IMG/VR virus record: IMGVR_UViG_3300033149_003973
Coordinates: 1 to 31,669 of that record
Length of the DNA stretch: 31,669 bases
Direction: 5' to 3' (one strand)
Source of the DNA: a virus
The notes below the pieces were generated by a model that ran no database searches, was not told where the DNA came from, and saw nothing but the letters and a program-made list of their open reading frames with translations. Within the stretch, counting starts at the first letter, position 1. Each line of letters starts with the position of its first letter. Made by a program: the position numbers and the translations under genes. Positions 9,604 to 24,183 of this stretch are shown in pieces.

Positions 9604-10290
9604 ATGTCTAACACTAAAACCAGAAAGGCCTTAGTCCTGTTGTCAGGAGGTCTAGACAGCTCTACGTGTTTAGCTGTAGCTAAACAGACCTACAACTGTA
9701 CTGCAGTAGGGTTTAACTACAACCAGAGACATTTAGTAGAGTTGTTGAAAGCCTCTCAACAGGCCAAGAGCCAAAACGTTCCTTTCAAACTATTACGTTT
9801 ACCCTTATACACTAGAAGTAGTCTTACAGACCACCAAATAAGTGTCAACCAACGCTCTCAGTTTGCTAGGGACAAAAGGTTACCTAGTACGTTTACAGCC
9901 GGACGTAACCTAATCTTTCTAAGTCATATGTTAGCCTACGGATACCCACAGGGTATCAAGCACTACTTTATAGGTGTCAACAACGTAGACTACTCCGGTT
10001 ATCCAGATTGTAAACCTGAGTTTATACAAAACGTAACCAACACCCTAAGGTTAGCTGTAGACGACCCTGGCATTTACGTCCACACTCCCTTAATCTCCTA
10101 TCAAAAGGCAGCTATCATCAAACTGGGTCGTAGCCTAAACGTAGACTACTCTGAAACCTGGAGTTGTTACAACCCACAAGCCATAAATAAGGGTGAACCA
10201 CTCGCCTGTGGTAAGTGTGAGAGTTGTCGAATTAGGTTGAAGGGTTTTAGAGAGGCTAACCTACAGGATCCTATTAAGTATGTAACCTAA
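9604..10290 (+). CDS. queC: 7-cyano-7-deazaguanine (preQ0) synthase QueC
   Basis: A 228-residue enzyme converting 7-carboxy-7-deazaguanine to preQ0 with ATP and ammonia. The PP-loop ATPase motif LLSGGLDSST is at 12-21, the QueC signature YPDCKPEF at 133-140, and the four zinc cysteines at C188, C202, C205 and C208 (WSCY...ACGKCESC). All key positions are intact and the length is normal for QueC. No glutamine amidotransferase domain is fused, so conversion onward to the amido or archaeosine-like base is not indicated by this gene. It is separated by about 6.6 kb from queD, queE and folE in the same operon. Confidence 0.96.
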   Translation: MSNTKTRKALVLLSGGLDSSTCLAVAKQTYNCTAVGFNYNQRHLVELLKASQQAKSQNVPFKLLRLPLYTRSSLTDHQISVNQRSQFARDKRLPSTFTAGRNLIFLSHMLAYGYPQGIKHYFIGVNNVDYSGYPDCKPEFIQNVTNTLRLAVDDPGIYVHTPLISYQKAAIIKLGRSLNVDYSETWSCYNPQAINKGEPLACGKCESCRIRLKGFREANLQDPIKYVT

Positions 10291-10315
10291 AAGTAAACCT
10301 TATATGGAGGTAAAG

Positions 10316-10615
10316 ATGAACCACATACACCCCGAACCAAGTAAGTTTGCTGGTAAGAAGGTAAGAATCAAACAAGAGGTTGTCCACCCACAGTTCAAGG
10401 ACTTCGGAGGTTCGGAGTTCTTAGTAGAGGACTGGTGGGACCGAGTTGCTGGTGAGTCTTGGATGTATTGTGAAGGAAACCCAGCTTGTCTGACCTATGC
10501 CGTCCGCTCAGGTCTCTTAGGACTTCCTATAGACAACGAGGTTTTATATGGAAAAGTTGGTCTGTACGGTCATCTAGTCCATATAAGCGAAATCTGTATA
10601 AACGAAAAACGTTAG
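10316..10615 (+). CDS. Conserved phage protein of unknown function
   Basis: A 99-residue protein (MNHIHPEPSKFAGKKVRIKQ...). The core VHPQFKDFGGSEFLVEDWWD followed by GESWM, GNPACLTYA and EVLYGKVGLYGHLVHISEI resembles a short uncharacterised protein found in many phages and prophages, often near replication or nucleotide genes. The predicted fold is beta-rich. I chose the ATG at 10316 because GGAGG lies 5 bases upstream; an ATG at 10304 overlaps that SD. The family link is from memory and function is unknown. Confidence 0.68.
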   Translation: MNHIHPEPSKFAGKKVRIKQEVVHPQFKDFGGSEFLVEDWWDRVAGESWMYCEGNPACLTYAVRSGLLGLPIDNEVLYGKVGLYGHLVHISEICINEKR

Positions 10616-10623
10616 AGGTAAAG

Positions 10624-10764
10624 ATGAACCTAATAAACCAAATCTACTGTACTAGCCTAGGTAAAGCCTTTTTGGGTATAGTTTTACACCACCTAAGTTG
10701 GCTATGGCCTGTAGGTATAACTATTCTATTCCTAACAACCCTTTATTATGTTTTAGAGAAATAA
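10624..10764 (+). CDS. Small membrane protein, 46 residues
   Basis: A 46-residue protein (MNLINQIYCTSLGKAFLGIV...). Residues 15-43 form one long hydrophobic segment with a Trp-Leu-Trp-Pro centre (HHLSWLWPVGITILFLTTLY), consistent with one membrane span or a hairpin. The ATG follows GAGGTAAAG, the same leader as the preceding gene, and starts 8 bases after its stop. Small membrane proteins in early phage operons may affect host membrane or superinfection, but nothing here identifies a target. Confidence 0.6.
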   Translation: MNLINQIYCTSLGKAFLGIVLHHLSWLWPVGITILFLTTLYYVLEK

Positions 10765-10766
10765 CA

Positions 10767-10874
10767 GTGTGGGCGTAGACATAAACCGGCCTCGGAATGT
10801 AGCTAAATGAGATGTTCTCTTCCCTCTGTTATAAGAGCAAGAAGTGTGAATGGTTGCTACGTCTACGCCTACAT
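10767..10874 (+). ncRNA. Predicted structured RNA element A
   Basis: A 14-bp closing helix pairs 10767-10780 (ending GGCGTAGAC) with 10861-10874 (starting GTCTACGCC), with two G-U pairs. Inside are a hairpin CCG-GCCT-CGG (10786-10795), a 5-bp helix GTAGC/GCTAC (10799-10803 with 10856-10860) stacked directly on the closing helix, and an inner CTCTT/AAGAG pair (10817-10821, 10833-10837). The 3' side is followed by an A-tract, not U, so it is not a terminator for the plus strand. It matches no RNA family I can name. It may be an mRNA structural or regulatory element, or a stable RNA. Confidence 0.6.
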
Positions 10875-10924
10875 CAAAACAAAAAAAAATTCAAGTTGAA
10901 AAGATTAGGGAGGAGGGAATAAAA

Positions 10925-11152
10925 ATGTACATAACAAAAAAGATGTTAGAGGAGCAAGTTAAACGTCTTAAAGAGGACCTAATCTTTAAAGAGTTTGAAC
11001 TTGGTCAGAAGGACCACGAGGTGAACGAACTACGTACAAAACTCTTAGACCTTAAGTCTGTTATAAGAGAACAACAAAGAACGATAGACCACCTTACACA
11101 GGCCCAAAGGGCGTCTCTCAGTACCGCTATGTTACTCCTAACAAATACCTAA
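10925..11152 (+). CDS. Small coiled-coil protein, unknown function
   Basis: A 75-residue protein. Residues 5-60 are one continuous charged helix with heptad spacing (MLEEQVKRLKEDLIFKEFEL... LRTKLLDLKSVIREQQ), typical of a coiled-coil dimer. I chose the ATG at 10925, directly after GGGAGGAGGG; an earlier in-frame ATG at 10850 lies inside structured element A and has no SD. Function is not known. Confidence 0.62.
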   Translation: MYITKKMLEEQVKRLKEDLIFKEFELGQKDHEVNELRTKLLDLKSVIREQQRTIDHLTQAQRASLSTAMLLLTNT

Positions 11153-11179
11153 AAAGACCTCAAGGAGTTCTTTAACGGA

Positions 11180-11395
11180 ATGAACAAATTTCTACTAGAA
11201 CATATACAAACCTATAAAGACGACATTATTATTCCAATTTGCCCTCAAGTCCTTCTCGACAATCTTTGGAAGCGTCTCCAAAGTAAGAGGAGGGGGGACA
11301 TAATGAGTCTAAATACAACAGGAAAGGAGGTGAGACCATATGGCAAAGAAGAAGTACTCCCCGGAGGAGATCGAGCGCATTCTACAAGAGAATAA
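11180..11395 (+). CDS. Possible small protein overlapping the next gene
   Basis: A 71-residue open frame from ATG 11180, 12 bases after AAGGAG. Its last 19 codons overlap the next gene in another frame and look like the shadow of that gene. An in-frame ATG at 11303 follows a stronger AGGAGGGG and would give only 30 residues. Either the 71-residue protein is real, or the short frame acts as a leader whose translation feeds into the gene at 11340. Evidence is limited to SD sites and the helical N-terminal half. Confidence 0.4.
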   Translation: MNKFLLEHIQTYKDDIIIPICPQVLLDNLWKRLQSKRRGDIMSLNTTGKEVRPYGKEEVLPGGDRAHSTRE

Positions 11396-11627
11396 GGAAC
11401 TGCGCGTCTACAAGCAAAGGGAGGAGGAGCGTAGGAAACGGCAAAAGGAGTCCGGCGCCTACAAAAAACAATACGAACGGATGAAGAAACGGATGCAAGA
11501 GGATCCGGAGTACGCTGAGCTCGTTAAGAAACAAAGGAAGAGCTATCAAGAGAAACGCCGCAGAAAGCTCCAGAAGATTATAGAGGAGCACAAGCGGTAC
11601 GTAGAGCTCTACGGTCCTCTGTCCTAA
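11340..11627 (+). CDS. Highly charged helical protein, unknown function
   Basis: A 95-residue protein made almost entirely of charged residues (KYSPEEIERILQENKELRVY then repeated ERRKRQKE-like segments). It should be a single long basic helix or coiled coil, which could bind nucleic acid. The ATG at 11340 follows a perfect AAAGGAGGTGA by 6 bases. Codon usage is somewhat richer in G and C (CGC, GAG, CTC) than in neighbouring genes. No conserved family was recognised. Confidence 0.68.
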   Translation: MAKKKYSPEEIERILQENKELRVYKQREEERRKRQKESGAYKKQYERMKKRMQEDPEYAELVKKQRKSYQEKRRRKLQKIIEEHKRYVELYGPLS

Positions 11628-11644
11628 CCACCCTAAAACCTAAA

Positions 11645-11707
11645 GGGAGGCCGACCTACAACCTAAGTTAAAAAAGGTTAAAAAAGGTTAAAAAAGGTCG
11701 GCCTCCC
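11645..11707 (+). ncRNA. Long perfect hairpin, element D
   Basis: GGGAGGCCGACCT (11645-11657) pairs perfectly over 13 bp with AGGTCGGCCTCCC (11695-11707). The 37-base loop contains three tandem copies of GTTAAAAAAG. No T-tract follows on the plus strand, so it is not a standard terminator. It may block or pause transcription, protect mRNA ends, or be an independent structured RNA. Confidence 0.6.
11667..11696. repeat. Three 10-bp tandem repeats in the hairpin loop
   Basis: GTTAAAAAAG occurs three times in tandem inside the loop of the 13-bp hairpin; its last two bases enter the right arm. Confidence 0.9.
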
Positions 11708-11715
11708 GTTCCTAA

Positions 11716-11790
11716 CGAAACAAAACGAAACAAAACGAAACAAAACGAAACAAAACGAAACAAAACGAAACAAAACGAAACAAAACGAAA
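11716..11790. repeat. Seven 10-bp tandem repeats upstream of an RBS
   Basis: CGAAA followed by seven perfect copies of CAAAACGAAA (75 bp in all) ends directly at the GGGAG ribosome-binding site of the gene at 11801. The unit has no stop codon, no G-rich pairing and little secondary structure, so the transcript here would be an unpaired A-rich leader, possibly aiding ribosome loading. Confidence 0.97.
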
Positions 11791-11800
11791 GGGAGATGTC

Positions 11801-12037
11801 ATGCCTACCACAAAACAACTATGGGCTAGACAGAGAAACTGGGAAAAGGGTCTTTTAATGGCTATGAGGGTTCAGCTACAGGACTTTAGGACCCTTACGC
11901 CTAGAGAGCGTCTCGACGCGGACCTATTGTTGTCGACCCTTAACAACCTAATAAACTGTTGGAAAGAACGGAACGAACACTCTAAATTCTACTATCTGAA
12001 ATGGAGGAAAACGAAAGGTGAAAATACAACTACGTAA
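11801..12037 (+). CDS. Small helical protein upstream of the nuclease, unknown function
   Basis: A 78-residue, mostly helical and basic protein (MPTTKQLWARQRNWEKGLLM... DADLLLSTLNNLINCWKERN). The ATG follows GGGAG at 6 bases. Its last 20 bases overlap the nuclease gene in another frame, which suggests coupled translation and perhaps a shared task in recombination. No known family is recognised. Confidence 0.6.
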   Translation: MPTTKQLWARQRNWEKGLLMAMRVQLQDFRTLTPRERLDADLLLSTLNNLINCWKERNEHSKFYYLKWRKTKGENTTT

Positions 12038-12866
12038 CACAGCACTCAACTACTTTTGCGACTGCGAAACCAAGTTTTACCACGGTGTGGTTCGCAGTCG
12101 TCAACTCAAGGAGAGGCCGGATTACTACTCAATAGGATCGTTGTACCACGAGGGTATGAAAGTCTTACTCCACCCTATCAATAAAAACAAAAACTTACAG
12201 GATAGGTTTAATGACGCAACTAAACATATGCGTAATTATGCGGAGGAGAATTCGTTCTCTCAGGAGGTCTACGAGACAGCCCTTGGACTCCTCAGAGCCT
12301 ACTTTACCAAGTACCCAGAAGACCCTGATGTCGACATAATCTCAGTCGAACAAGAGCTGAGTAGAGCGTTAATAGACCGTAAAGGTCTGAAAGTGGTCTA
12401 CGAGGCTACTATAGACGCTATCGGTCGAACCAAAGACAGTTATAAACGTTTAGCTCTAATAGAACACAAGTCCACCTCAGGCTACGGGTCCACCTACAGT
12501 AGGTCTATTACACACAGCCCACAAGTTGACGGGTTTGCCTGGGTAGGTGAAGGTAGTCTAAAGGAGCCCATCGAGCTGGTGATCGTTAACTATGGGGTTA
12601 AAACCCGCCAACCGCGTGCGGAACGTGATAAGGTAGTTATGAACTCCAACCGTATCCAAAAATGGTACGACTTCGCCGTACATAAAGCTGAACGAATTGC
12701 AAAAGCAATCCAGACAAACGTTTACGATAGGAACCACTATCACTGTCATACAACTAGGTCTACCTGCCCCTACGTACAACTCTGCTGGCATGGTGAAAAT
12801 GACGCTACGCTTCAATTGTATGAGGAAGTAAAGATGGGTAGGCCCACCTCCAAAATCACTCTTTAA
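12018..12866 (+). CDS. PD-(D/E)XK nuclease, RecB/Cas4-like
   Basis: A 282-residue nuclease of the RecB/Cas4 exonuclease group. Motifs in order: GSLYHEG (40-46, the His motif), D133 in YEATIDAIGR, and the catalytic E149-H-K151 in LALIEHKST. Cysteines at 14/16 (YFCDCETKF) and at 243, 250 and 256 (CHTTRSTCPYVQLC) are placed like the four iron-sulphur ligands of Cas4/AddB-type enzymes. It would resect DNA ends to make single strands for the Sak4-like ATPase two genes later. The GTG start at 12018 follows GGAGG with a long spacer. There is no nearby CRISPR array. Confidence 0.85.
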   Translation: MKIQLRNTALNYFCDCETKFYHGVVRSRQLKERPDYYSIGSLYHEGMKVLLHPINKNKNLQDRFNDATKHMRNYAEENSFSQEVYETALGLLRAYFTKYPEDPDVDIISVEQELSRALIDRKGLKVVYEATIDAIGRTKDSYKRLALIEHKSTSGYGSTYSRSITHSPQVDGFAWVGEGSLKEPIELVIVNYGVKTRQPRAERDKVVMNSNRIQKWYDFAVHKAERIAKAIQTNVYDRNHYHCHTTRSTCPYVQLCWHGENDATLQLYEEVKMGRPTSKITL

Positions 12867-12929
12867 CCTTAACGTAAGACACTAACAACCTCGAAAATCT
12901 TAACGTAAAAAGGATTAAGGAGGTTTGAG

Positions 12930-13319
12930 ATGTTAACTATAGAAAACATACATCAGGACGTGTACCAGCTATACACGCTCCTACGTAAGAACCACTTCAT
13001 ACCTAGAACCTTGGTAATATTAGGCAGACGCTCCTTATTACCAGGAGCGTGCCTAGTAGACCTTTTGAACCCTAGCTACGTACGTTACGCGGACAAAGTC
13101 AACAAGTTACAAGAGTGTAAGTTGATAGGTGACACCCTAGTCTTTGTGTTCAACATAGAACACGAGGACTATGTAAAATGGGTACGACGCTCCCTGTTAG
13201 GTAGGACGTTCAAAATAGCTTGTTTATATAAAAGCTGTGTAGAGGAGCCTGACTTTTGCGTCTACGTCGTACCCCCCGAAGTACAACTAACACTACCACT
13301 TAGAACCAACCAAAGCTAA
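12930..13319 (+). CDS. Hypothetical protein in the recombination module
   Basis: A 129-residue protein with an alternating beta-strand pattern in the second half (LIGDTLVFVFNIEHEDYVKW, TFKIACLYKSCVEEP, FCVYVVPPEVQLTLPL), suggesting a compact alpha/beta fold. The ATG follows TTAAGGAGGTTTGAG. The 63 bases before it carry two copies of CTTAACGTAA 31 bases apart. It has no recognised family. Its place between the nuclease and the Sak4-like ATPase suggests a part in recombination or replication, which is inference only. Confidence 0.62.
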   Translation: MLTIENIHQDVYQLYTLLRKNHFIPRTLVILGRRSLLPGACLVDLLNPSYVRYADKVNKLQECKLIGDTLVFVFNIEHEDYVKWVRRSLLGRTFKIACLYKSCVEEPDFCVYVVPPEVQLTLPLRTNQS

Positions 13320-13344
13320 CAAAACTGACGAGGAGACTTGAGAC

Positions 13345-13452
13345 GTGGCGAAATGTATCGTACTCTTAATATTAATAGTACTAATGCTACTAACTCTAGG
13401 AGCTTTACTGAGTATGTTTAGGAAGCTCTTGAGGGAAAGGAGGAATCGTTAA
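13345..13452 (+). CDS. Small single-span membrane protein, 35 residues
   Basis: A short gene starting at GTG 13345, nine bases after GAGGAG, and ending directly before the ATG of the next gene. The protein begins MAKCIVLLILIVLMLLTLGA, a hydrophobic helix of about 20 residues, and ends FRKLLRERRNR, a strongly positive tail expected to stay in the cytoplasm. The next gene's SD (AAAGGAGG) lies inside its last codons. Size and form resemble small phage membrane modulators. No homologue can be named. Confidence 0.55.
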   Translation: MAKCIVLLILIVLMLLTLGALLSMFRKLLRERRNR

Positions 13453-14241
13453 ATGCCTAAGTTACAAACCTATGATGGTGCCTCAGACCGTCACATAATC
13501 TTACTAATGGGACCCAGTAAGGCAGGTAAGACAACCCTAGCCTGTCTTTTATTCGGCAAACAAAACACCTTTGTGTTGTCGTTCGACCCAGATGGTTTGA
13601 AAAGCGTACGCCCCATCGACGCCTTCATCGTAGACCCTAAAAAACCCTGGGATTATTGTGTAGACGTCTTCCCAGAAATAACCAAATTGAAGGGGAAGAA
13701 AAATACGTGCGTGGTGGACGACCTCACACACATGGGGTACGTCTTCCTCAGAGTCCAGAAGTCCTACAAAGACTCCAGAAAGACCTACGGTGAAGCAATC
13801 GAACAGATGAGGCAGCTCGTTGAAAAACTTAAATATGACTTCCCGTGGTTGAACATTATCTACACCTCTACGGATATGTACGTCGAGGACCAGGAGGAGA
13901 AGGTGGTTATGACGTACCCTAACGTTATAGGTCGTTACACCTTTGCCCAGGAGATGCCTGGCAGGTGTGACCACGTCTTCTACCTTCTACCGCCTAAGCA
14001 ACGTAAGAAGGTTGTCGACGGCGGCAAACGTTTAATAATTGACAAAGTGGAACGTAAAATACTAACAACCTCGGATGGCGTCCTAATGGCTGGTAACCGA
14101 GTAAATCAAGCTGGAGGGGAAACAATTTTAGAACTACAAGAGGAGGTGAGCGTTGATGACGGACTTAAGAACATCGAACGACTTAGATCGAAGTTACTCG
14201 GCACATACCGACCTAACAGCAGCAATACTAACGGCAATTGA
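13453..14241 (+). CDS. Sak4-like / AAA_24 P-loop ATPase (recombination)
   Basis: A 262-residue ATPase with the RecA-type core. The Walker A motif GPSKAGKTT is at 20-28 and Walker B CVVDD at 86-90. The pattern (short N-terminus, P-loop, SFDPDG at 43-48, and STD sensor in IIYTSTDMY near 137-145) matches the phage nucleotide-binding AAA_24 group that includes the single-strand annealing recombinase Sak4. Such proteins often neighbour an SSB-like gene, as here. It would promote annealing or strand exchange during replication and repair. A P-loop ATPase is sure; the Sak4 label is probable. Confidence 0.85.
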   Translation: MPKLQTYDGASDRHIILLMGPSKAGKTTLACLLFGKQNTFVLSFDPDGLKSVRPIDAFIVDPKKPWDYCVDVFPEITKLKGKKNTCVVDDLTHMGYVFLRVQKSYKDSRKTYGEAIEQMRQLVEKLKYDFPWLNIIYTSTDMYVEDQEEKVVMTYPNVIGRYTFAQEMPGRCDHVFYLLPPKQRKKVVDGGKRLIIDKVERKILTTSDGVLMAGNRVNQAGGETILELQEEVSVDDGLKNIERLRSKLLGTYRPNSSNTNGN

Positions 14242-14413
14242 GGTCATCGAAGCTCTACCCAACACAAACGTACCCTGTACAATAAACCCACAGGCCGTAC
14301 ACGGTACGTTCAACCACTACAGAAAGGAGGTGAGCAAGATATCCAAATCTCCCTTTATCTACGTAAAAACCTACACTAAGAAGAAGGAAAGGAGGAATAA
14401 GGTATGGCTGTAA
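14156..14413 (+). CDS. Small overlapping gene between Sak4-like and SSB-like genes
   Basis: An 85-residue frame whose ATG at 14156 follows a perfect AGAGGAGGTGAGCGTTG, although both lie inside the 3' end of the ATPase gene (86-base overlap). It also overlaps the next gene by 10 bases. The first 45 residues are polar and helical, the last 25 very basic (KTYTKKKERRNKVWL). A second perfect AAAGGAGGTGAGCAAG occurs inside it at 14321-14336, followed by ATA rather than a usual start codon. The strong SD argues it is translated; function is unknown. Confidence 0.55.
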   Translation: MTDLRTSNDLDRSYSAHTDLTAAILTAIEVIEALPNTNVPCTINPQAVHGTFNHYRKEVSKISKSPFIYVKTYTKKKERRNKVWL

Positions 14414-14823
14414 TTCGTACTAAGTTGAAAGATTTGGCCCAAGGCACCCCGGTTCCGGACGGCGTCTACCACTGCGAGGTAGTCAAACTGGAGGAGACCG
14501 AATTCCAATCCGGCTCCTGGGGGTTTAGTGGCGAACATAAAATCTTAGACGGTGAGCAGCAAAACCGTCGTTTGTTTGAAAACTACATCCTTATTAACGA
14601 GGACGGTGAGCTGTCCGGCGCCGCCTTCAGGTTCGCCCAACTCTACGAAGCCTGCGTAAACGATGAGGTCGAACTGGAGGGTGAGACTGAAGAGGTCAAA
14701 GAGATACTAAGGAACCTTGCCGAGGCGTGCGTAGGCGCCACCTTCACCTGCGAGACTGAGGTTGAACCAGGTGAGGCTGAGTATAGGGATAGGGCAAGGA
14801 TCGTAAGGTACCATAAGGACTAA
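14404..14823 (+). CDS. SSB-like protein (DUF669-type, probable)
   Basis: A 139-residue, acidic, beta-rich protein. The opening PVPDGVYHCEVVKLEETEFQ, the middle EHKILDGEQQNRRLFENYIL, and the acidic C-terminal half resemble phage DUF669 proteins, which are thought to bind single-stranded DNA and lie beside AAA_24/Sak4 ATPases. It would coat single strands for replication and annealing. The ATG follows AAAGGAGGAATAAGGT. Codons are richer in G and C than in the surrounding genes, which often marks a highly expressed gene. The family name is recalled from pattern. Confidence 0.68.
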   Translation: MAVIRTKLKDLAQGTPVPDGVYHCEVVKLEETEFQSGSWGFSGEHKILDGEQQNRRLFENYILINEDGELSGAAFRFAQLYEACVNDEVELEGETEEVKEILRNLAEACVGATFTCETEVEPGEAEYRDRARIVRYHKD

Positions 14824-14841
14824 AAACCTAAGAATTAAAAG

Positions 14842-14931
14842 TTACCGGCACCCTATCTAATTGTGTTATGGCGTTCCCTTCATACTAGTTACGGAGGGTC
14901 GACCCAGGCAAGTTAGGTTAGGGTGCCGGGT
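14842..14931 (+). ncRNA. Predicted structured RNA element B
   Basis: An 11-bp perfect helix CCGGCACCCTA (14845-14855) pairs with TAGGGTGCCGG (14919-14929), then after a small internal loop CTAA (14857-14860) pairs with TTAG (14913-14916). Inside, CCCTTC (14876-14881) pairs with GGAGGG (14893-14898) around an 11-base loop. The element follows the SSB-like stop codon by about 20 bases, with no T-tract after it. It has the same general plan as elements A and C but no clear sequence identity. No known riboswitch motif was seen. Confidence 0.6.
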
Positions 14932-14970
14932 CACCTAAAACCTTTAACATACAAAAAGGACACCCTCACA

Positions 14971-15020
14971 CAAACTTATACAAACTTATACAAACTCACA
15001 CAAACTCATACAAACTCGCT
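14971..15020. repeat. Five 10-bp tandem repeats upstream of an RBS
   Basis: CAAACTTATA is present twice, followed by CAAACTCACA, CAAACTCATA and CAAACTCGCT. The array ends 8 bases before the AAGGAG site of the gene at 15037. Confidence 0.95.
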
Positions 15021-15036
15021 ATAGAAGGAGACCATT

Positions 15037-15225
15037 ATGAAATTACTACTTAGTCTCGGAACACTGACAGGTAGGTCCTTCTTAGGTATTAAAACTCTAA
15101 AGGTATACCTCTACAACCCCTTCAAAAAGCCTTACGCGAAGTTTGGGAACGTGAGACACCTAAGACTTTGTGGCGTAAAATTCGTCTGGGTGAAAAGGAT
15201 AAAAAGGATAAAAAGGAGGCCGTAA
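15037..15225 (+). CDS. Small basic protein, unknown function
   Basis: A 62-residue protein (MKLLLSLGTLTGRSFLGIKT...), strongly basic, with a hydrophobic N-terminus and a C-terminus RIKRIKRRP encoded by a GGATAAAAA tandem repeat. The ATG follows AGAAGGAGACCATT. The terminal repeat also supplies the ribosome-binding site of the next gene, so repeat copy number sets both the tail of this protein and the distance to the next start. No family is recognised. Confidence 0.55.
   Translation: MKLLLSLGTLTGRSFLGIKTLKVYLYNPFKKPYAKFGNVRHLRLCGVKFVWVKRIKRIKRRP
15192..15218. repeat. 9-bp repeat merging into an RBS
   Basis: GGATAAAAA occurs twice (15197-15205, 15206-15214) and continues into GGAGG, the SD of the gene at 15227. 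The preceding GAAAA extends the pattern by half a unit. Confidence 0.85.
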
Positions 15226-15226
15226 A

Positions 15227-15490: not shown

Positions 15491-15513
15491 ATAGTTGAAA
15501 AAAGGAGGTAGCT

Positions 15514-15828
15514 ATGTACAGAGGTCAAACGAGAACACATATAAAAAACATGTGTAGGGGTAAGAACTACCCGTTGTGTAAGATAAGACTTGACGACGGG
15601 AGTATTTGTAATACGCCTATTCGTCCCAAACTATATATAAGCCCTTCAGGTAAGATATCTACTAGACCCTCTGCCAGTTCAATAGAGCTCAACCTCAGGT
15701 ATATGTGTGAGATATGTTATAAGGAACAACGACCAGTAGAACTGGTAGAAACCAAACACAAAAGAGGTCAAATCGACTGCGATTGGAGGGATATGGTATG
15801 TACCGACGTAAGCGTACCCGTATACTAA
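15514..15828 (+). CDS. Cysteine-rich protein, probable zinc binding
   Basis: A 104-residue protein with seven cysteines: C14, C22, C32, C65, C68, C89 and C96. The pairs C22...C32 and C65-x2-C68 (YPLCKIRLDDGSICNTPI, YMCEICYKE) look like one zinc site; C89 and C96 may form part of another. The N-terminus is basic. The ATG follows AAAAAAGGAGGTAGCT. It overlaps the next gene by 31 bases, so expression is coupled. No named family fits. Confidence 0.62.
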   Translation: MYRGQTRTHIKNMCRGKNYPLCKIRLDDGSICNTPIRPKLYISPSGKISTRPSASSIELNLRYMCEICYKEQRPVELVETKHKRGQIDCDWRDMVCTDVSVPVY

Positions 15829-16106
15829 CCTACAACCCAGACATACACGCTAAGAGACTTATTAGGATGTTTGAGAGTTCGGAATGCTGTGGGTGTCCAG
15901 TAACCCGTAAGTTCAAGCCTAGAAACAGACCTATACCCTTAGCACGTAATCCAGAGGCAGAGGGCGTTATGGCTAAGGTATGCCGCCTATGCAAGACATT
16001 TATAAAGGTCCCTATTACAGACTCTTGTCCGTGTCTAGCGCTTGGTAAGGAGGAGGCTGTTAAACGTACATGGATAGCCCTTGAAGAGAAGGGATACCTT
16101 AAATAA
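15798..16106 (+). CDS. Cysteine-rich phage protein, paralogue 1
   Basis: A 102-residue protein with C30/C31/C33, C62-x2-C65 and C77-x-C79 clusters. The C-terminal half (VCRLCKTFIKVPITDSCPC then ALGKEEAVKRTWIALEEKGY) is nearly repeated in the gene at 16596, so the two are paralogues. A C-terminal CPCxxLGxEEAxKRxWxALEE pattern occurs in other small phage proteins, to my memory without assigned function. The ATG at 15798 is preceded by GGAGGG; an upstream TTG overlaps that SD. It probably binds one or two zinc ions. Confidence 0.7.
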   Translation: MYRRKRTRILTYNPDIHAKRLIRMFESSECCGCPVTRKFKPRNRPIPLARNPEAEGVMAKVCRLCKTFIKVPITDSCPCLALGKEEAVKRTWIALEEKGYLK

Positions 16107-16132
16107 AATACAATAAACCGAAAGGAGTTGAA

Positions 16133-16321: not shown

Positions 16322-16345
16322 CCAGTCACTCGAGTCGACTAAAAG

Positions 16346-16567: not shown

Positions 16568-16595
16568 ATAAGATATTAGATTAAGGAGGACTACA

Positions 16596-16907
16596 GTGAA
16601 ATGTAAATACACTAAAGACGACCATGCCAAAAGGATTATCAAATTACTCGAATCTCCGAAGGCGTGTTTCAAGTGCCCAGGACAGACAACCTTCGGACCT
16701 AACCTGTACGTTGCTCCCAGGAGCATTCCTTCTACGATCACAGATGAAGAAGAAATTCCTGTCTCCATCTTACCAAGAGAAGTCTGCTTGGTATGTAGAA
16801 CCTTTGTTGGACTTCTTTTTACAGACAACTGTCCCTGCAATGCCCTTGGAAAGGAGGAAGCTGTCAAACGAACATGGTTAGCCTTAGAGGAAAAGGGTTA
16901 CATATAA
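16596..16907 (+). CDS. Cysteine-rich phage protein, paralogue 2
   Basis: A 103-residue protein starting at GTG, 6 bases after AAGGAGG. Cysteines C24-x2-C27, C64-x2-C67 and C79-x-C81 match those of the gene at 15798; the last 25 residues (ALGKEEAVKRTWLALEEKGY) are almost identical while the middle has diverged. This indicates an old tandem duplication, later split by two unrelated small genes. It ends 16 bases before queD. A link to 7-deazaguanine synthesis or to nucleic acid binding is possible but unproven. Confidence 0.7.
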   Translation: MKCKYTKDDHAKRIIKLLESPKACFKCPGQTTFGPNLYVAPRSIPSTITDEEEIPVSILPREVCLVCRTFVGLLFTDNCPCNALGKEEAVKRTWLALEEKGYI

Positions 16908-16923
16908 AAAAAGGAGGTAAAAG

Positions 16924-17298
16924 ATGAAAACTGTTTTAGGTTATATGACGACGTTCCACGCCGCCCACAAGCTGTCGATGCACACAGGTAAGTGTAAAAA
17001 TCTCCACGGGCATACCTACAGACTCCTAGTGGAGGTGGAGGGTCATCCTAACTATAACAGACACGACCCTTCATACGGTATGATAATAGACTTTAAGGAG
17101 CTTAAACAAATCGTAGAAGGTGTCGTAGAAAAGGTTGACCACACCTATCTCAACGACTCTACTAATACCTACCCAACCGCTGAATTCCTTTGCAGGTGGA
17201 TCTGGGGAGAACTACATGTACACCTCGAACACATACTTAAACGTGTTCGTTTATGGGAGACCGACCACACCTACGCCGAATTCAGAGCGAGGGGTTAA
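16924..17298 (+). CDS. queD: 6-carboxy-5,6,7,8-tetrahydropterin synthase QueD
   Basis: A 124-residue enzyme of the PTPS family that turns dihydroneopterin triphosphate into 6-carboxytetrahydropterin, the second step to preQ0. Zinc ligands H15, H28 and H30 (FHAAHKL, LHGHTY), catalytic C24 (GKCKNLHGH), the VDHTYLND motif (71-78), PTAEF (84-88) and E112 (LWETDH) are all present. The length is normal. The ATG follows AAAAAAAGGAGGTAAAAG. It lies 20 bases upstream of queE and shares its transcript. Confidence 0.95.
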   Translation: MKTVLGYMTTFHAAHKLSMHTGKCKNLHGHTYRLLVEVEGHPNYNRHDPSYGMIIDFKELKQIVEGVVEKVDHTYLNDSTNTYPTAEFLCRWIWGELHVHLEHILKRVRLWETDHTYAEFRARG

Positions 17299-17318
17299 AC
17301 TCAAGAGGAGGGAGAAAG

Positions 17319-17918
17319 ATGACCAAAATTATACCAGTAGCCGAGACGTTCGAAAGCTACCAAGGAGAAGGTAGACATGCGTTCACCCCTATGTTTTTTA
17401 TAAGACTAGCAGGGTGTAACCTAAAGTGTTCGTTTTGCGACACCGACCACAGAACCAGATTGGAGTATGCGGTTGAGGAACTTGTCAGCCTAGCAAGCAG
17501 ATCAGAGCTAAAGTGTATATGTATTACAGGTGGCGAGCCTACTATACATCCTTTACTACGTAAGCTCGTACAAACCCTTTTAGACAAAGGCCATAAGGTG
17601 TACGTAGAAACAAACGGAGTAGAGCCCATACCAGACCTTCCACGAACCTATATATCCTGCTCCCCTAAGGAGATTATGGACCTAACGAACCTCGATAAGG
17701 TTAACGAGTGGAAGGTCTTAATTCCAACCTATAGTAAATGGGTACACCAACTACGTAACCTTGACACCGCGGCCCATAAGTTCGTACAACCAATAGATCC
17801 AGGTGGACGTAAACCCTATCTAGTACGTATAAAAGAAAACCTTGAGCTCTGCGAACCCTACCTGAGGGAGGGATGGAAACTCTCTCTCCAATGGCATAAG
17901 GTGTTCGGCTGGCAGTAA
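17319..17918 (+). CDS. queE: 7-carboxy-7-deazaguanine synthase QueE (radical SAM)
   Basis: A 199-residue radical SAM enzyme that contracts the pterin ring to 7-carboxy-7-deazaguanine. The cluster motif C33-x3-C37-x2-C40 (GCNLKCSFCDTDH), the substrate motif YQGEG with AFTPMFFIRL, and GGEP at 71-74 are clear. The ATG at 17319 follows GAGGAGGGAGAAAG; a longer in-frame extension would overlap queD and has no support. The gene is compact, like phage and minimal QueE proteins. Confidence 0.95.
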   Translation: MTKIIPVAETFESYQGEGRHAFTPMFFIRLAGCNLKCSFCDTDHRTRLEYAVEELVSLASRSELKCICITGGEPTIHPLLRKLVQTLLDKGHKVYVETNGVEPIPDLPRTYISCSPKEIMDLTNLDKVNEWKVLIPTYSKWVHQLRNLDTAAHKFVQPIDPGGRKPYLVRIKENLELCEPYLREGWKLSLQWHKVFGWQ

Positions 17919-17920
17919 TA

Positions 17921-17950
17921 ACAAACTATAACAAACTATAACAAACTATA
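17921..17950. repeat. Three 10-bp tandem repeats between queE and folE
   Basis: ACAAACTATA occurs three times in tandem directly after the queE stop codon and just before the AAAGGAAAGGA site of folE. Because 10 is not a multiple of 3 and each junction gives TAA, three units put a stop codon in every plus-strand frame. Confidence 0.95.
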
Positions 17951-17968
17951 AAAGGAAAGGATGAACGA

Positions 17969-18556
17969 ATGGAAAAAGGACGTCTGGTTTTAGAAAACCT
18001 AACGAAAGAGGGAAAGAAGAAAATACTCAACAAGTTAGAGGACGCCTTCGCCGACATACTAGACGCGCTAGGCGCCCCTGACAACGACCTAAACTTTAGA
18101 GACACCCCTAACAGGTGTGCCAGAGCTCTGTTGGACGACTTCATAGCCGACGACTTCGAAATCAGCGAGTTTGAGGAGGAACCTTTCGACGGTATGATCA
18201 CCTGGCCATCTCACACCGTCTGGACTAGGTGTCCACACCACCTCGAGAGGGTAGGCATAAGAGTCTGTGCGAGTTACATCCCACGCTCCAGTAGAGTCGT
18301 AGGCCTCTCCAAACCTATCCGTCTAATGGACTACCTAGCTAAAGGTTGTATTCTACAGGAGACCTATACCCGTCTCCTAGCCGATGAGATTATGGACCAC
18401 CTAGAACCGGAGGGTTGCGGCGTACATACAGAAGCACGTCACCAATGTATGCAGTGTAGAGGTGTACGTACCCACTCACCAGTACGTATGACAATCCTAC
18501 GTGGCTCGTTTGCCTACAGTCGTTCTATAAAAGAAGAGTTCCTTAGGAATGTTTAA
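17969..18556 (+). CDS. folE: GTP cyclohydrolase I FolE
   Basis: A 195-residue enzyme opening GTP to 7,8-dihydroneopterin triphosphate, the first step of both folate and preQ0 synthesis. Visible motifs: FRDTPNRCARALLDDF (43-58), zinc ligands C88 and H91 in CPHHL, VVGLSK (110-115), and C160 in RHQCMQCRGV, the third ligand. The C-terminal TxxRG-like segment is complete. It follows queE with the same promoter, so the phage supplies its own GTP entry step. The ATG at 17969 follows GGAAAGGATGAACGA; an ATG at 17961 is out of frame. Confidence 0.95.
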   Translation: MEKGRLVLENLTKEGKKKILNKLEDAFADILDALGAPDNDLNFRDTPNRCARALLDDFIADDFEISEFEEEPFDGMITWPSHTVWTRCPHHLERVGIRVCASYIPRSSRVVGLSKPIRLMDYLAKGCILQETYTRLLADEIMDHLEPEGCGVHTEARHQCMQCRGVRTHSPVRMTILRGSFAYSRSIKEEFLRNV

Positions 18557-18568
18557 TAGGTTTTATTA

Positions 18569-18680
18569 GGTTGTACGGAGCCCCGACTAGCCGGGAGAGT
18601 GTGGCGTTGGGGGTGTACCCGTCCGATGTGCGGCCACTGCAGAATTCGGGTTGCTGGAAGGGGCTCCATAACCCTTTTTT
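18569..18680 (+). ncRNA. Predicted structured RNA element C, possible attenuator
   Basis: GGAGCCCC (18577-18584) pairs with GGGGCTCC (18660-18667), extended by GGTT/AACC (18569-18572, 18670-18673). The 75-base interior contains GTGGC/GCCAC (18601-18605, 18633-18637) and a GGG-TGTA-CCC hairpin (18611-18620). Six T residues follow at 18675-18680, so the outer helix could end transcription, and the DUF3310-type gene begins 12 bases later. An alternative fold could allow readthrough, as in an attenuator. The 8-bp end helix recalls a tRNA acceptor stem, but no T-loop is present. No Rfam-like family is recognised. Confidence 0.58.
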
Positions 18681-18692
18681 GGGGGGTTTAAA

Positions 18693-18896
18693 ATGAAATA
18701 CTACAAAAAGGGTAAGATAGAAGTTATAGACTTTATAGTCGACCAACAACTCGGCTTTCGGGAGGGTAATGTAGTCAAATACATTTGTAGGTATAAACAT
18801 AAAAGCCGTTCTCGTAAACACCGACTACAAGACTTGCGTAAGGCTAGACACTATATACAGATGTTAATTGACGAGTACGAAACAGCCTTAGGTTGA
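18693..18896 (+). CDS. DUF3310 (SaV-like) small protein
   Basis: A 67-residue protein with the DUF3310 pattern: YYKKGKIEVIDFIVDQQLGF, EGNVVKYICRYKHK, DLRKARHYIQMLIDEY. The family is common in phages and linked by annotation to nucleotide metabolism or kinases, without proven function. The ATG lies after GGGGGG and the T6 run of structured element C. Its stop codon lies in the first unit of a 10-bp tandem repeat. Confidence 0.78.
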   Translation: MKYYKKGKIEVIDFIVDQQLGFREGNVVKYICRYKHKSRSRKHRLQDLRKARHYIQMLIDEYETALG

Positions 18897-18930
18897 TTTA
18901 GGTTGATTTAGGTTAATTTAGGTTGATTAA
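18891..18930. repeat. Four 10-bp tandem repeats carrying a stop codon
   Basis: GGTTGATTTA, GGTTGATTTA, GGTTAATTTA and GGTTGATTAA follow each other. The first holds the stop codon of the DUF3310-type gene and the last merges with AAGGAGG, the SD of the next gene. Confidence 0.93.
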
Positions 18931-18940
18931 GGAGGTCGAA

Positions 18941-19186
18941 ATGAAACCTAGGTATGAAATCAGACTAATTGACGACGATTGGATCTTAACGGAGTTCCAC
19001 GCAAACTCCGACAAAATCAAAGCCCAGATCATTTTGACTAACGAGGAGGCTGTTGCAATCTGTCGTCATATTCTACGATACAACCTTGGAGGCGTAAATG
19101 GACGGGAGAAAGGCAACGAGTTACCCAAACATATCAAAGCAGCCTACGGTATTTTACGACCTATTCAAATTAAATCGGAGGCGTAA
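18941..19186 (+). CDS. Hypothetical protein, 81 residues
   Basis: An 81-residue protein (MKPRYEIRLIDDDWILTEFH...) with an N-terminal beta hairpin-like region and a helical C-terminus (NEEAVAICRHILRYNLGG). It starts at the ATG after AAGGAGGTCGAA; an in-frame upstream start would lie within the tandem repeat. Its stop codon abuts the start of the HTH gene. No recognised family. Confidence 0.6.
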   Translation: MKPRYEIRLIDDDWILTEFHANSDKIKAQIILTNEEAVAICRHILRYNLGGVNGREKGNELPKHIKAAYGILRPIQIKSEA

Positions 19187-19486
19187 ATGGACGAGAGGAA
19201 GGAACAACTCGAATACCTTTATTATGATTGCAAGATGTCTATAAGCCAAATGGCTCGCCACCTACATATGAAACCCCCAACTCTCTACAGAGAGTTGCGA
19301 CAACTAGGAATAAAGATGCGACCCAGAGGCGGCCCTAACAAACCAAGAATCTTAGAGAACCTAGAGCGAGATGGCCTGGACGTTATGCAAATTATAAAGG
19401 AGGCTGGGAACTTGGATAAGGCAGCCGTTCGTCTAGGCGTAAGTCGAGGAACCCTTTACAAGTGGTTGAAAAGGAGGACACGATGA
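19187..19486 (+). CDS. Protein with two helix-turn-helix motifs
   Basis: A 99-residue basic protein with two HTH-like segments: MSISQMARHLHMKPPTLYRE (17-36) and NLDKAAVRLGVSRGTLYKWL (75-94), joined by an RPRGGPNKPR linker. Such tandem HTH proteins act as transcription regulators or as DNA-binding adaptors in phages. The ATG comes right after the previous stop and GGAGGCG. Its TGA overlaps the polymerase ATG by one base pair step (ATGA), so both are translated together. It is a candidate for the regulator binding the palindromes at 8967-9138, but nothing shows this directly. Confidence 0.72.
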   Translation: MDERKEQLEYLYYDCKMSISQMARHLHMKPPTLYRELRQLGIKMRPRGGPNKPRILENLERDGLDVMQIIKEAGNLDKAAVRLGVSRGTLYKWLKRRTR

Positions 19487-21768
19487 ACGAATGTAACAAA
19501 TGTAAATTATGTGTGGAACGTACAAAGGTAGTCCCAGCTAGAGGCAACCTTAACAGCCCAATATGTTTGTTAGGTATGGGACCCGGGGCCACTGAGGACC
19601 AGAAGGGTATACCGTTTTGTGGTGACACAGGAGCCCTTCTACACCGCCTGCTGGCAGACGCCGGCCTGTCTAATAAGACGTACACTCAAAACACTATAAC
19701 AGGTGACAACGAATGGCTGTTTGAGGTATACGCCAAAAAAAGGTTTTTTAAGGTTATATACAAACCCTATATAATGATTGATAATGTGGTTAGGTGCCGT
19801 CCGCCTAATAACAGAGCCCCTACTCTAGAGGAAATGGAGGCGTGCCACGTACACACCGAAAGGCTATTTAGGAGGATGCCTAACCTAAAGGTAATTATTG
19901 CCTGCGGGGCTCCGGTTCTACAACATTTTACTGGTCACACGAGCATAACTAAATATAGAGGGTATCCATTTCAATACAACGACTATATAGTCATCCCAAT
20001 AGTACACCCTCGCTTCATCCAACAACAATGGCAGTATTACGATATAACCGTTTACGACCTAGAGAAAGCCAACAGGTTGGCTCTGGAGGGTTGGCAGCCA
20101 CCTAAGACGGATTACGTAGAGGCAAGTCATATTCCTAGAGATGAGGTGTTAGGTAAGCTATCAAAATGTTATGCGTTCGACATCGAGACCGTTGGTATGG
20201 AAGAGAAGGACGCCCTAGACCCAGTAAGAGGTCATATTACTGGTATGGCGTGCTCCTATGCCGAAGGTAAAGCTATACATTTCGACTTCGACAATAGGTA
20301 CGAACGCGACCTAGCTAAAGAGGTATTAGAGAACGACGCCTACAAAACAGCTCATAATGCTACGTTCGACGTTACCTTCCTCAGACGTATGAACATAAAG
20401 ATAAAGGCTGACTTTGATACCTCTCTAGCCCAGTACAGCTTGGTACCCCACTGGCCTAAATCCCTAGCGTTTTGTAATTCTCTACATACCGACTACCCCT
20501 ACTACAAGAGCATGCGGACCTCTCTAGACAGAAACGATAGGATTACCTACTGCTGCTTTGATGCGGACACTACCTACCAGAACTACGTCAAACTGTCTAA
20601 GGAAGTTAAACAGGAGGGAACCTCAGACGTCCTAAAGGAGATCGTTTTCCCGCTTGTCCACGTCTGTAGCGGGATGACCTTAACAGGTATAAAGGTAAAC
20701 GAGCAAATGTTAGACGAACAACTAGAGGAGGTAAGTAAAGAGGCAGACCAAATATGGGACCATTTTGACAAGTATAATGTTAACATTCGCTCTCCTAAAC
20801 AACTTAACGAGATGTTCGTCGCCCTAGGTTTAGGTAGGCAAGCCTCTACAGACGAGGACCACTTGGAACGTCTCTATAAGAATACAGAAAGTCCCGTAGT
20901 AGCAGCCATCCTAGACTATCGTAAAAAGAACACAATCCAAAAGTGGTTGCGTACTATAAAAAGTAATTTGTTCAACGGACGTATCCACGCTAGGTTCGGT
21001 CCATCTGGTACCGAGACCGGTAGGTTAAACTCCGAGAAGCCTAACATGCAGAACGTTAACAAAAAACGTAGACATATATTCATACCTGATGAGGGTAAGG
21101 TATTACTACAGGCTGACTACGACAGGTTGGAGTTTGCCGTAGCAGCTATTTTAGCAAACGACGAGAAAATGATACACGACGCCTTCTACAAACACATTCA
21201 TAAGGAGGTTACTACGTTGTTACACGGGCCTAATTATACTGACCAACAATACCTTGAGGGTAAGAGCATAGTCTTTGGTTTAATCTATGGGAGAACAACC
21301 GGTTCCATAGCCCTCAAGTTTGGCATCCCAAAATGGAAGGCTCAGAAGTATGTAGATATAGTTTTAGGTAACTACCCCGGACTAGACACCTTTAGGAAGA
21401 CTTTACAACGTAAAGCTAAGAGTGATGGGTTTCTACGATCCGCCTTCGGACGCATTCGTTATTTTCTAAGAGGCAACATTACCGGTCAAGCTCTCAACTT
21501 CCCAGTTCAATCGGCCGCGGCTGACGTCACCCTTAGCTCTTTGATACGTTTATCCCACTTACTAGAGGAGAAGTATCCCGAGGCCGACCTGTTGTTATCA
21601 GTTCACGACTCTATATTAATTCAATGTCCTGAGGAGGACGTATACAAATATGCTAAGTTAATGAAGGAGGTGATGGAGCGACCTATACCGCAACTCAAAA
21701 ACATGAGCTTTAAGGTAAGTTTTGAATATGGTTACAACTGGAGAGATTTGAAGGAATTGGAGGTGTAG
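19483..21768 (+). CDS. DNA polymerase I with N-terminal uracil-DNA glycosylase-like domain
   Basis: A 761-residue replicative polymerase. Residues 1-200 form a family-4-like UDG domain with iron-sulphur cysteines C4, C7, C105 and C121 (CNKC, RCRPPNN, EAC), but motif 1 is GMGPG (31-35) rather than GEAPG and motif 2 is HPR (175-177) rather than HPS. A 3'-5' exonuclease follows (FDIETVG, HNATFDVTFLR, YCCFDAD), then the palm with TETGRLNSEKPNMQN, DYDRLEFA (motif A), KSIVFGLIYG (motif B) and SVHDS (motif C). Motif B lacks the usual Arg four residues before Lys. A UDG-like domain on a phage polymerase is known in SPO1-type phages. The ATG follows AAAAGGAGGACACG. Confidence 0.93.
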   Translation: MNECNKCKLCVERTKVVPARGNLNSPICLLGMGPGATEDQKGIPFCGDTGALLHRLLADAGLSNKTYTQNTITGDNEWLFEVYAKKRFFKVIYKPYIMIDNVVRCRPPNNRAPTLEEMEACHVHTERLFRRMPNLKVIIACGAPVLQHFTGHTSITKYRGYPFQYNDYIVIPIVHPRFIQQQWQYYDITVYDLEKANRLALEGWQPPKTDYVEASHIPRDEVLGKLSKCYAFDIETVGMEEKDALDPVRGHITGMACSYAEGKAIHFDFDNRYERDLAKEVLENDAYKTAHNATFDVTFLRRMNIKIKADFDTSLAQYSLVPHWPKSLAFCNSLHTDYPYYKSMRTSLDRNDRITYCCFDADTTYQNYVKLSKEVKQEGTSDVLKEIVFPLVHVCSGMTLTGIKVNEQMLDEQLEEVSKEADQIWDHFDKYNVNIRSPKQLNEMFVALGLGRQASTDEDHLERLYKNTESPVVAAILDYRKKNTIQKWLRTIKSNLFNGRIHARFGPSGTETGRLNSEKPNMQNVNKKRRHIFIPDEGKVLLQADYDRLEFAVAAILANDEKMIHDAFYKHIHKEVTTLLHGPNYTDQQYLEGKSIVFGLIYGRTTGSIALKFGIPKWKAQKYVDIVLGNYPGLDTFRKTLQRKAKSDGFLRSAFGRIRYFLRGNITGQALNFPVQSAAADVTLSSLIRLSHLLEEKYPEADLLLSVHDSILIQCPEEDVYKYAKLMKEVMERPIPQLKNMSFKVSFEYGYNWRDLKELEV

Positions 21769-22602
21769 ATGAGCGTAGAACAACAAATACTGTTATCTAT
21801 GGAGATACCCTATAAACACTTACAACACTTTTACCTTCAGGAGGACATAGGTTTCTGTATAGCTCCCTACGTAAGAGAGAAAAAGGAATATATAGAACAC
21901 TACAAACTTCAGGTTCTCGCTGGCAAAAGGGTCATACTGGACAACGGGATGTACGAACAAGGCGTAGCTATAAACAACGAGGAACTTATCAAAACAGCTA
22001 AGTCCTTAGTGACTACGTCTGAACAACCCTATATAATAGCCCCGGACGTTATGGGCGACTCTATTAAATCCTACGAGTTGACCACGGCCTTTAGAGAACA
22101 GGCGAGATGGAATGGACTGTATAGAATAGGAGCCGTAGTGCACGGTAAAAATGTAAACGAGATGATTAATTACTACAAATGGCTAGTAAATGAGGGCTTC
22201 GAACCTATATGCATAACATTTTTAGAGAACCGTATAGACCTCCTTAGAAAGTTAAGACTAGAGTACGACATCTGGCACCACTTTCTAGGTATGACTACCA
22301 TAGAGGAAATTAAATATATTCGCTCTTATATTCCTTTACCACGTATGACAAGTATAGACACCTGTAAGCCTATTAAAGCAGCTTTACACAACTTACGTAT
22401 AACACAGAACGTTAGAGGTTTAGGTACATGGTCACCAACCGTAGAACTCGACGAGAAGGCTATAATACTAACCCTGGAGAACATTAAAACGTTAAAATTC
22501 TACCTACAGGCGAGCCTCCCACTTGCTAAGGTACATAAAAGGTACGCTACACAGGAGGAGTTATGCGGTACCGAGAGCTCATTCCAAAAGAAGGATGGAT
22601 AA
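21769..22602 (+). CDS. dpdA: DpdA-like DNA guanine transglycosylase
   Basis: A 277-residue TGT-superfamily protein expected to exchange guanine in phage DNA for preQ0. TGT landmarks appear in order: D58 in LDNGMYEQG (like the DSGGFQ motif), D93 in APDVMGD, VVHG at 123-126 (like the VQG motif), LGM at 173-175, and D197 in SIDTCKP (like the nucleophile in FDCVxPT). The CxCxxC zinc site of tRNA-type TGT is absent, as in phage DpdA proteins. It starts right after the polymerase stop with GGAGGTG as SD, and it overlaps the helicase-like gene by 40 bases. Modification is thus tied to replication genes. DNA activity is inferred from family and context. Confidence 0.88.
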   Translation: MSVEQQILLSMEIPYKHLQHFYLQEDIGFCIAPYVREKKEYIEHYKLQVLAGKRVILDNGMYEQGVAINNEELIKTAKSLVTTSEQPYIIAPDVMGDSIKSYELTTAFREQARWNGLYRIGAVVHGKNVNEMINYYKWLVNEGFEPICITFLENRIDLLRKLRLEYDIWHHFLGMTTIEEIKYIRSYIPLPRMTSIDTCKPIKAALHNLRITQNVRGLGTWSPTVELDEKAIILTLENIKTLKFYLQASLPLAKVHKRYATQEELCGTESSFQKKDG

Positions 22603-24156: not shown

Positions 24157-24183
24157 ATCCTAAGGAGACCTAATTAGTCCTCC
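24140..24183. repeat. Direct repeat and palindrome at the convergent junction
   Basis: ATCCTAAGGAGA occurs at 24140-24151 and 24157-24168. An imperfect 20-bp palindrome centred on CTAATTAG spans 24164-24183. They sit where the rightward early and leftward late operons meet. There is no T-tract, so it is not a clear intrinsic terminator for either strand. Confidence 0.6.

Follow-up and report, generated by a model that had tools for sequence, protein, structure and literature searches.

A preQ0 pathway and a predicted DNA transglycosylase in one gene run

The virus record IMGVR_UViG_3300033149_003973, a stretch of 31,669 bases that is referred to here as the window, encodes FolE, QueD, QueE and QueC, which are predicted to make preQ0 (7-cyano-7-deazaguanine), as a free base, from GTP. 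It also encodes a very probable DNA-guanine transglycosylase (DpdA). All five genes are on the plus strand within positions 9604-22602 (Table 1), inside a block of plus-strand genes that extends from ~8.1 to ~24.2 kb. The run begins with QueC, followed by small open reading frames (ORFs), a PD-(D/E)XK nuclease, a Sak4-like ATPase, a DUF669 protein, further small ORFs, QueD, QueE and FolE, and continues with a DUF3310 protein, a helix-turn-helix protein, DNA polymerase A, DpdA and a primase-like protein. QueC and QueD are 6.6 kb apart, the dpdA start codon immediately follows the polA stop codon and the last 40 nucleotides of dpdA are shared with the primase gene. An earlier reading of the DNA letters (the original prediction) had placed a DpdA-like transglycosylase in the same operon as the pathway genes. 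The transglycosylase is supported by fold, profile and context, whereas "operon" holds only in the sense of a shared strand and close packing.

Family matches and alignments to solved and phage relatives bore out the original prediction that FolE, QueD, QueE and QueC keep their catalytic and metal-binding residues, and chance resemblance is excluded for all four genes. QueC aligned to the Bacillus subtilis enzyme (3bl5, E 6.7e-37) and, in an alignment to other phages, retains the SGGLDS loop, YNQRHLVE (YxQxHxxE), YPDC and four zinc cysteines. Escherichia coli QueC is reported to need Y35, R99, Y131 and Y189 (Libby et al. 2026, PMC13329287). The window protein has counterparts in the Y of YNQRHLVE, the R of TAGRN, the Y of YPDC and the Y after the first zinc cysteine, the last of which we read as the equivalent of Y189. 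QueD retains C-xxx-HGH and DH..LND (alignment to 2oba and 4ntm), QueE retains CxxxCxxC, QGEG and TGGEP (alignment to the QueE structures 6nhl and 4njg), and the FolE zinc ligands in CPHH and HQCM are kept in an alignment to solved GTP cyclohydrolases. The most likely QueE start is the ATG at 17319, which is preceded by a strong ribosome-binding sequence; the mechanical ORF begins at 17253.

The fifth protein gave no Pfam or NCBIfam match, so the DpdA label needed independent support. A single-sequence search of the PDB yielded no significant match, and tblastn (E up to 0.01) identified, at 22-24% identity, nine phage records. Four belong to Flavobacterium phage immuto and carry the annotation DNA guanine transglycosylase; the other five are Bacillus phages, in which the protein is annotated as hypothetical or otherwise. 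Searching with a three-sequence alignment found 158 viral stretches with relatives; the best 80 of these, minus the window's own virus, gave 79 loci for comparison (L009-L087), many of which end at contig ends. An AlphaFold2 model built from an alignment of 50 family proteins (A2) had a mean pLDDT of 86.4 and a pTM of 0.83, and its best Foldseek match in the PDB was the solved structure of a DNA preQ0 insertase DpdA (7ui4, E 5.3e-6). When Foldseek's top 999 chains were realigned with VIA-align, the 50 matches listed were 49 tRNA-guanine transglycosylase (TGT) entries and 7ui4 (Z 16.9-18.4), with 7ui4 at Z 17.2 over 229 residues. The protein is therefore predicted to share a TIM-barrel fold with TGTs (VIA Z up to 18.4). 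In a search of 177,635 PDB sequences with the family profile, 7ui4 was again the one match below E 1, at a non-significant E of 0.55.

A profile of 55 relatives, from which the window protein and its closest relative (L009) were left out, scored the window protein at 102.7 bits, and the reversed control was not listed. Three aspartates (D58, D93 and D197) are invariant in 57/57 aligned family proteins and, from their motif order, are presumably the catalytic aspartates of TGT. The CxCxxC...H zinc motif, which marks tRNA-guanine transglycosylase, is absent from the 277-residue sequence. Taken from model and sequence, 21769-22602 very probably encodes a DNA-guanine transglycosylase, and a chance explanation of the match is very unlikely.

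Table 1. Positions of the predicted cassette genes and of other genes in the run (plus strand throughout)
Feature	Position	Strand	Length (amino acids)	Evidence
Window (virus record)	31,669 bases			
QueC, 7-cyano-7-deazaguanine (preQ0) synthase	9604..10290	+	228	PF06508 1.4e-63; TIGR00364 171.6 bits, cut-off 150.3
PD-(D/E)XK nuclease, replication/recombination module	12018..12866	+		PF12705 2.3e-11; homologue in L009
AAA ATPase, Sak4-like annealing protein	13453..14241	+		PF13479 1.6e-12; phrog_124 3.3e-21
QueD, 6-carboxytetrahydropterin synthase	16924..17298	+	124	PF01242 3.4e-32; TIGR03367 94.1 bits, cut-off 89.25
QueE, 7-carboxy-7-deazaguanine synthase (radical SAM)	17319..17918	+	199	PF04055 1.4e-10, over Pfam cut-off
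FolE, GTP cyclohydrolase I	17969..18556	+	195	PF01227 1.4e-29, over Pfam cut-off
DUF3310 protein	18693..18896	+	67	PF11753 1.2e-12
DNA polymerase A, N-terminal uracil-DNA-glycosylase-superfamily domain	19462..21768	+	768	PF00476 1.7e-63; PF03167 5.5e-18; PF01612 1.7e-6
DpdA, very probable DNA-guanine transglycosylase, CP220/immuto lineage	21769..22602	+	277	Predicted fold, family profile, locus context
Primase/helicase-like protein	22563..23867	+		phrog_14296 DNA primase 1.8e-34; homologue directly after dpdA in L009

Phylogenetic placement of the transglycosylase

The A2 profile matched immuto, CP220, Youna2, BSP7 and phiST (5/12 phage records) and gave no match in CAjan, 9g, Dp-1, nt-1, lambda, T7 or Almagne, nor in eight further phages. 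Profile comparison by hhalign gave probabilities of just 1.6% against CAjan DpdA and 2.4% against nt-1 DpdA2; the CAjan alignment was partly co-linear and non-significant. The best PHROG match of the window protein was phrog_19058 (1.5e-9), which the CP220 protein matches at 1.5e-181, and the 9g and CAjan enzymes fall in other PHROGs. Proteins in 14 Campylobacter phage records share 43-44% identity with immuto DpdA. The tree joins the window protein and L009 as a deep pair (31% identity, full support); branches are long, bootstrap values unsettled and the placement of the pair unsure. By sequence, the window protein falls on a deep branch of the CP220/immuto/phiST lineage and belongs to neither DpdA1 (9g/CAjan) nor DpdA2 (nt-1), the types of Hutinet et al. 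2019 (PMC6884629). The kinship to CAjan-type phages implied by the original prediction thus needs qualifying. We take the CP220/immuto/phiST lineage to be "DpdA3", a name that reportedly comes from work by Cui and colleagues in 2023 (NAR).

In the genome collection, the DpdA profile matched just three metagenome-assembled genomes (Winogradskyella, a Clostridia bacterium and one further bacterium) at 23-24% identity. The families phrog_19058 and phrog_20335, both annotated as of unknown function, contain the CP220 and phiST transglycosylases, and PF20314 (DUF6610) gave sub-threshold matches to the family members of BSP7, Youna2 and CP220; the two PHROGs, and DUF6610, could be relabelled as transglycosylases.

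Tailoring genes and pathway genes at related loci

A sister contig of 39,737 bases (G001; L006, L007) represents the same virus, with 99.99-100% identity over window positions 752-31669, apart from ~30 bases by which the lengths differ around 11.75 kb. The 43 bases at the end of the sister contig correspond to window positions 1-43 with one mismatch, so that window and sister contig can be read as a closed circular map of ~40.4 kb. The original prediction had seen no QueF, ArcS or amidotransferase and had asked for the rest of the genome to be searched. Pfam searches of both contigs gave no match for QueF, GATase_2, GATase_6 or the ArcS-type family DUF5591, and a family profile likewise found no QueF on the sister contig, so the absence extends over a nearly closed genome. 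Phages 9g and nt-1 served as positive controls for the GATase_6 and DUF5591 searches: GATase_6 found the 508-residue Gat-QueC-like frame of 9g, below cut-off, which indicates that the search works on phages, and DUF5591 matched archaeal controls and nt-1. The ArcS statement rests on DUF5591, which we take to stand for ArcS, because TIGR00432 proved to be an archaeosine TGT model that matches all 14 control genomes.

At least one of FolE, QueD, QueE, QueC and QueF was present in 73/79 related loci. Individually, FolE was found in 55 loci, QueD and QueE in 52 each, QueC in 34 and QueF in 61. All four preQ0 genes occur together in 27 loci, and only two of these lack QueF: L009, and L057, whose contig ends ~1.3 kb after dpdA. 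BSP7 and Youna2 also carry all four genes and, like L009, have no QueF outside FolE cross-matches, which places the window in a QueF-less minority of the DpdA family. The cross-matches arise from PF14489, which exceeded its cut-off in BSP7 (42469-42645) and Youna2 (46663-46839); in these phages and in L009 the matches fall inside FolE genes, reflecting the related folds, and were rejected as QueF. This is an annotation trap for QueF counts. Also rejected was the idea that the ORFs separating FolE from DpdA in Bacillus-type phages encode a uracil-glycosylase partner, as they show weak, sub-threshold P-loop-type matches only.

Among 36 QueC proteins (window, BSP7 and the 34 loci, some of them near copies), 19 lack the C...CxxCxxC zinc pattern (e.g. 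L054:2465-3346 and L012:10756-11610) and still keep the SGGxDS, YxQxHxxE, PxRN and YPDC patterns. For 18 of these 19, QueF is in the same locus, the exception being L057 with its early contig end. A zinc-free QueC would be unusual.

Comparison with known systems

The window system adds one more case to a known type, in which a preQ0 pathway is combined with DpdA. CAjan and Rosebush share with it the minimal set for preQ0 in DNA (dPreQ0), namely FolE, QueD, QueE, QueC and a DpdA (PMC6884629), and genes for DNA polymerase and for Cas4-like and Sak4-like proteins likewise neighbour the run in CAjan, but CAjan DpdA is of another lineage. Campylobacter phages CP220 and CPt10 carry a transglycosylase of the same family as the window, and CP220 has FolE, QueD, QueE and QueC with no QueF, GATase_2 or GATase_6 match. 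Theirs is the system with reported complete replacement by dADG (7-amido-7-deazaguanine). CP220 DpdA is just 25.6% identical to the window protein over 227 columns, and its pathway genes are spread over a genome with a family B polymerase, whereas the window dpdA lies between polA and a primase gene.

Bacillus phage BSP7 and Weizmannia phage Youna2 have QueC-QueD-QueE-FolE-DpdA-PolA in one run, with dpdA overlapping polA by 8 nucleotides. Their DpdA proteins are 21-23% identical to that of the window, and dpdA precedes polA there but follows it in the window. A literature search on BSP7 gave no report of its DNA chemistry. Flavobacterium phage immuto and Cellulophaga phage phiST share the DpdA family and FolE, QueD and QueE with the window. 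Unlike the window, immuto has QueF and a formyltransferase-annotated gene and phiST gave no QueC match, so their bases should differ. In the window, a complete preQ0 cassette and a divergent DpdA of the CP220 lineage occur in a compact phage genome of ~40 kb that lacks QueF; window, BSP7 and Youna2 form a QueF-less subset with a predictable, testable base.

Predicted mechanism and identity of the base

We consider it likely that these genes form a phage DNA-modification cassette directed against restriction. FolE, QueD, QueE and QueC would make preQ0, and DpdA, a TIM-barrel base-exchange enzyme related to TGT, would remove guanines from replicated DNA and insert the 7-deaza base in their place, yielding DNA that host restriction enzymes read poorly. 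DpdA might also be coupled to the replisome. The presence of the preQ0 set and DpdA with no tailoring match suggests that a preQ0-type base is exchanged into DNA, as reported for CAjan and Rosebush. Any independence from host genes, as put forward in the original prediction, would cover the preQ0 supply genes only.

A number of observations weigh against this assignment or limit it. For the transglycosylase, the Foldseek TM-score to 7ui4 is just 0.44, the matches that come next (E 5e-5 and weaker) are to other TIM barrels, and 983/999 chains reach Z >= 8 in VIA-align, as befits a common fold. The window protein is at most 31% identical to any relative and 19-26% identical to seven named phage proteins, so substrate choice is not transferable from relatives. 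In the pathway, QueC has TAGRN at the canonical VPxRN and its first zinc cysteine lies 13, not 8, residues before the next cysteine; QueE models are the best NCBIfam matches for QueE, yet all are below cut-off; and FolE scores below NCBIfam cut-offs. The tailoring searches cover the QueF, GATase_2, GATase_6 and DUF5591 families only, and the map closure depends on the 43-base overlap with its one mismatch, with 708 window bases outside the sister contig.

For the base itself we lean, by a modest preference, towards dPreQ0, which the original prediction had named as the simplest product. The same gene set is present in CAjan and Rosebush, which are reported to contain dPreQ0 at 70,628 and ~96,500 per million nucleotides, respectively, and CAjan without dpdA contains none (PMC6884629). 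The prediction is less secure than it had appeared, given the CP220-lineage DpdA of the window and the dADG of CP220. CP220 has the same gene set with a DpdA of the same lineage and no QueF, GATase_2 or GATase_6 match, and 100% of its deoxyguanosine is reported to be replaced by dADG (PMC8306585, citing other work), which makes dADG, with complete replacement of G through the same mechanism, a serious rival, although we hold it to be distinctly less probable. It would arise if QueC stopped halfway, its reaction passing through ADG (PMC13329287), or if DpdA preferred ADG; the shared phrog_19058 and the identity of immuto DpdA to Campylobacter phage proteins count in its favour. Against this, CP220 QueC reads FPDC and YGSNH where the window has YPDC and YNQRH, and E. 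coli QueC Y131F is reported to retain partial activity only (PMC13329287). We put dPreQ0 ahead of dADG because window QueC lacks these two CP220 changes; its residues favour dPreQ0 and do not settle it. Comparing CP220, with dADG reported, to the window set, with dPreQ0 predicted, would allow QueC residues and DpdA choice to be tested as the decider.

Should the genes instead raise preQ0 for queuosine in host tRNA, as was suggested for phages that have pathway genes and lack a DpdA (PMC6884629), the transglycosylase fold, common to tRNA enzymes, would be accounted for. We regard this as the least probable of the explanations, because the gene run includes a DpdA-lineage protein, which lacks the CxCxxC motif that we take to be typical of tRNA-guanine transglycosylase, its CP220 relative sits in a phage whose DNA is reported to be modified, and there is no tRNA gene in the window. 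Scarcely more probable is conversion of phage preQ0 to preQ1 by a host QueF before insertion, giving dPreQ1 or a further derivative in DNA. The frequency of QueF near DpdA at the related loci suggests that this family often works with preQ1-type bases, but the four-gene phages BSP7 and Youna2 and locus L009 do without it, and CAjan grown in E. coli shows dPreQ0 and fewer than 6 dPreQ1 per million nucleotides (PMC6884629). A Pfam search confirmed QueF in our E. coli control genome. That the virus DNA carries some derivative other than dPreQ0 or dADG, or none, is overall unlikely and a little less probable than dADG.

Extent of guanine replacement

Palindrome avoidance was gauged as the observed/expected ratio of 6-base palindromes. 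The window virus (contig G001) showed no avoidance (0.99, bootstrap 0.91-1.05), in contrast to CAjan (0.74) and to the range seen in four DpdA1/DpdA2 phages (0.74-0.77). Seven phages of the window DpdA lineage gave 0.90-1.02 and 51 IMG/VR loci of at least 12 kb averaged 0.92, compared with 0.59-0.93 in 10 phages without the window-type DpdA, presumed mostly unmodified, and 0.84 in NCTC12673. At a GC content of 0.40-0.45, the window virus (0.99), BSP7 (1.02) and Youna2 (0.91) stand above the DpdA1/2 phages and two Geobacillus phages (0.77-0.78); the groups overlap when GC is low, SPBc2 (0.92) and phi14:2 (0.93) reach similar values without this system, and host confounds the comparison. A lack of palindrome avoidance fits strong protection and hence high replacement, making high or complete guanine replacement in the window virus plausible, but the counts are only a hint.

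CAjan replaces about a third of its G, as calculated from its reported dPreQ0 content and 44.7% GC. Among the reported cases reviewed here, none is a complete replacement by dPreQ0: CAjan and Rosebush are partial, and CP220 is complete but with dADG. That the deep-branch CP220-type DpdA, encoded right after DNA polymerase, exchanges all guanine for dPreQ0 as the DNA is replicated is a tentative idea that we think improbable; if true, it would represent a new G-free genome chemistry.

Genome context and neighbouring genes

To the left of the plus-strand block, structural genes (major head protein, portal and terminase) are on the minus strand, and long minus-strand ORFs lie to the right of ~24.2 kb. 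For the terminase, the genome collection gave no relative and the viral collection the sister contig alone. In L009, polA, dpdA and the primase gene are also tightly packed, with one ORF of 176 amino acids between polA and dpdA and an overlap of dpdA with the primase gene. The L009 polymerase (L009:5227-7479) is a homologue of window PolA with the same domain layout by eye. The uracil-glycosylase domain of window PolA may be inactive, as it has GMGPG where L009 reads GEAPG.

Neither Pfam (E up to 0.01) nor PHROG (E up to 0.001) yielded a match for the 1,856-residue protein at window 24174-29744. Two cysteine-rich ORFs (15783-16106 and 16596-16907) look like paralogues by eye, with nearly identical C-terminal 20 residues, and a family search with the second gave no match. 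A tail-side module of the sister contig (L007:17690-19199) encodes a class-I methyltransferase (PF08241 3.3e-14) next to a protein that matches glycosyltransferase-2 below threshold; the module could conceivably act in DNA hypermodification. Between queE and folE (window 17919-17950), the sequence aacaaactat occurs three times in tandem.

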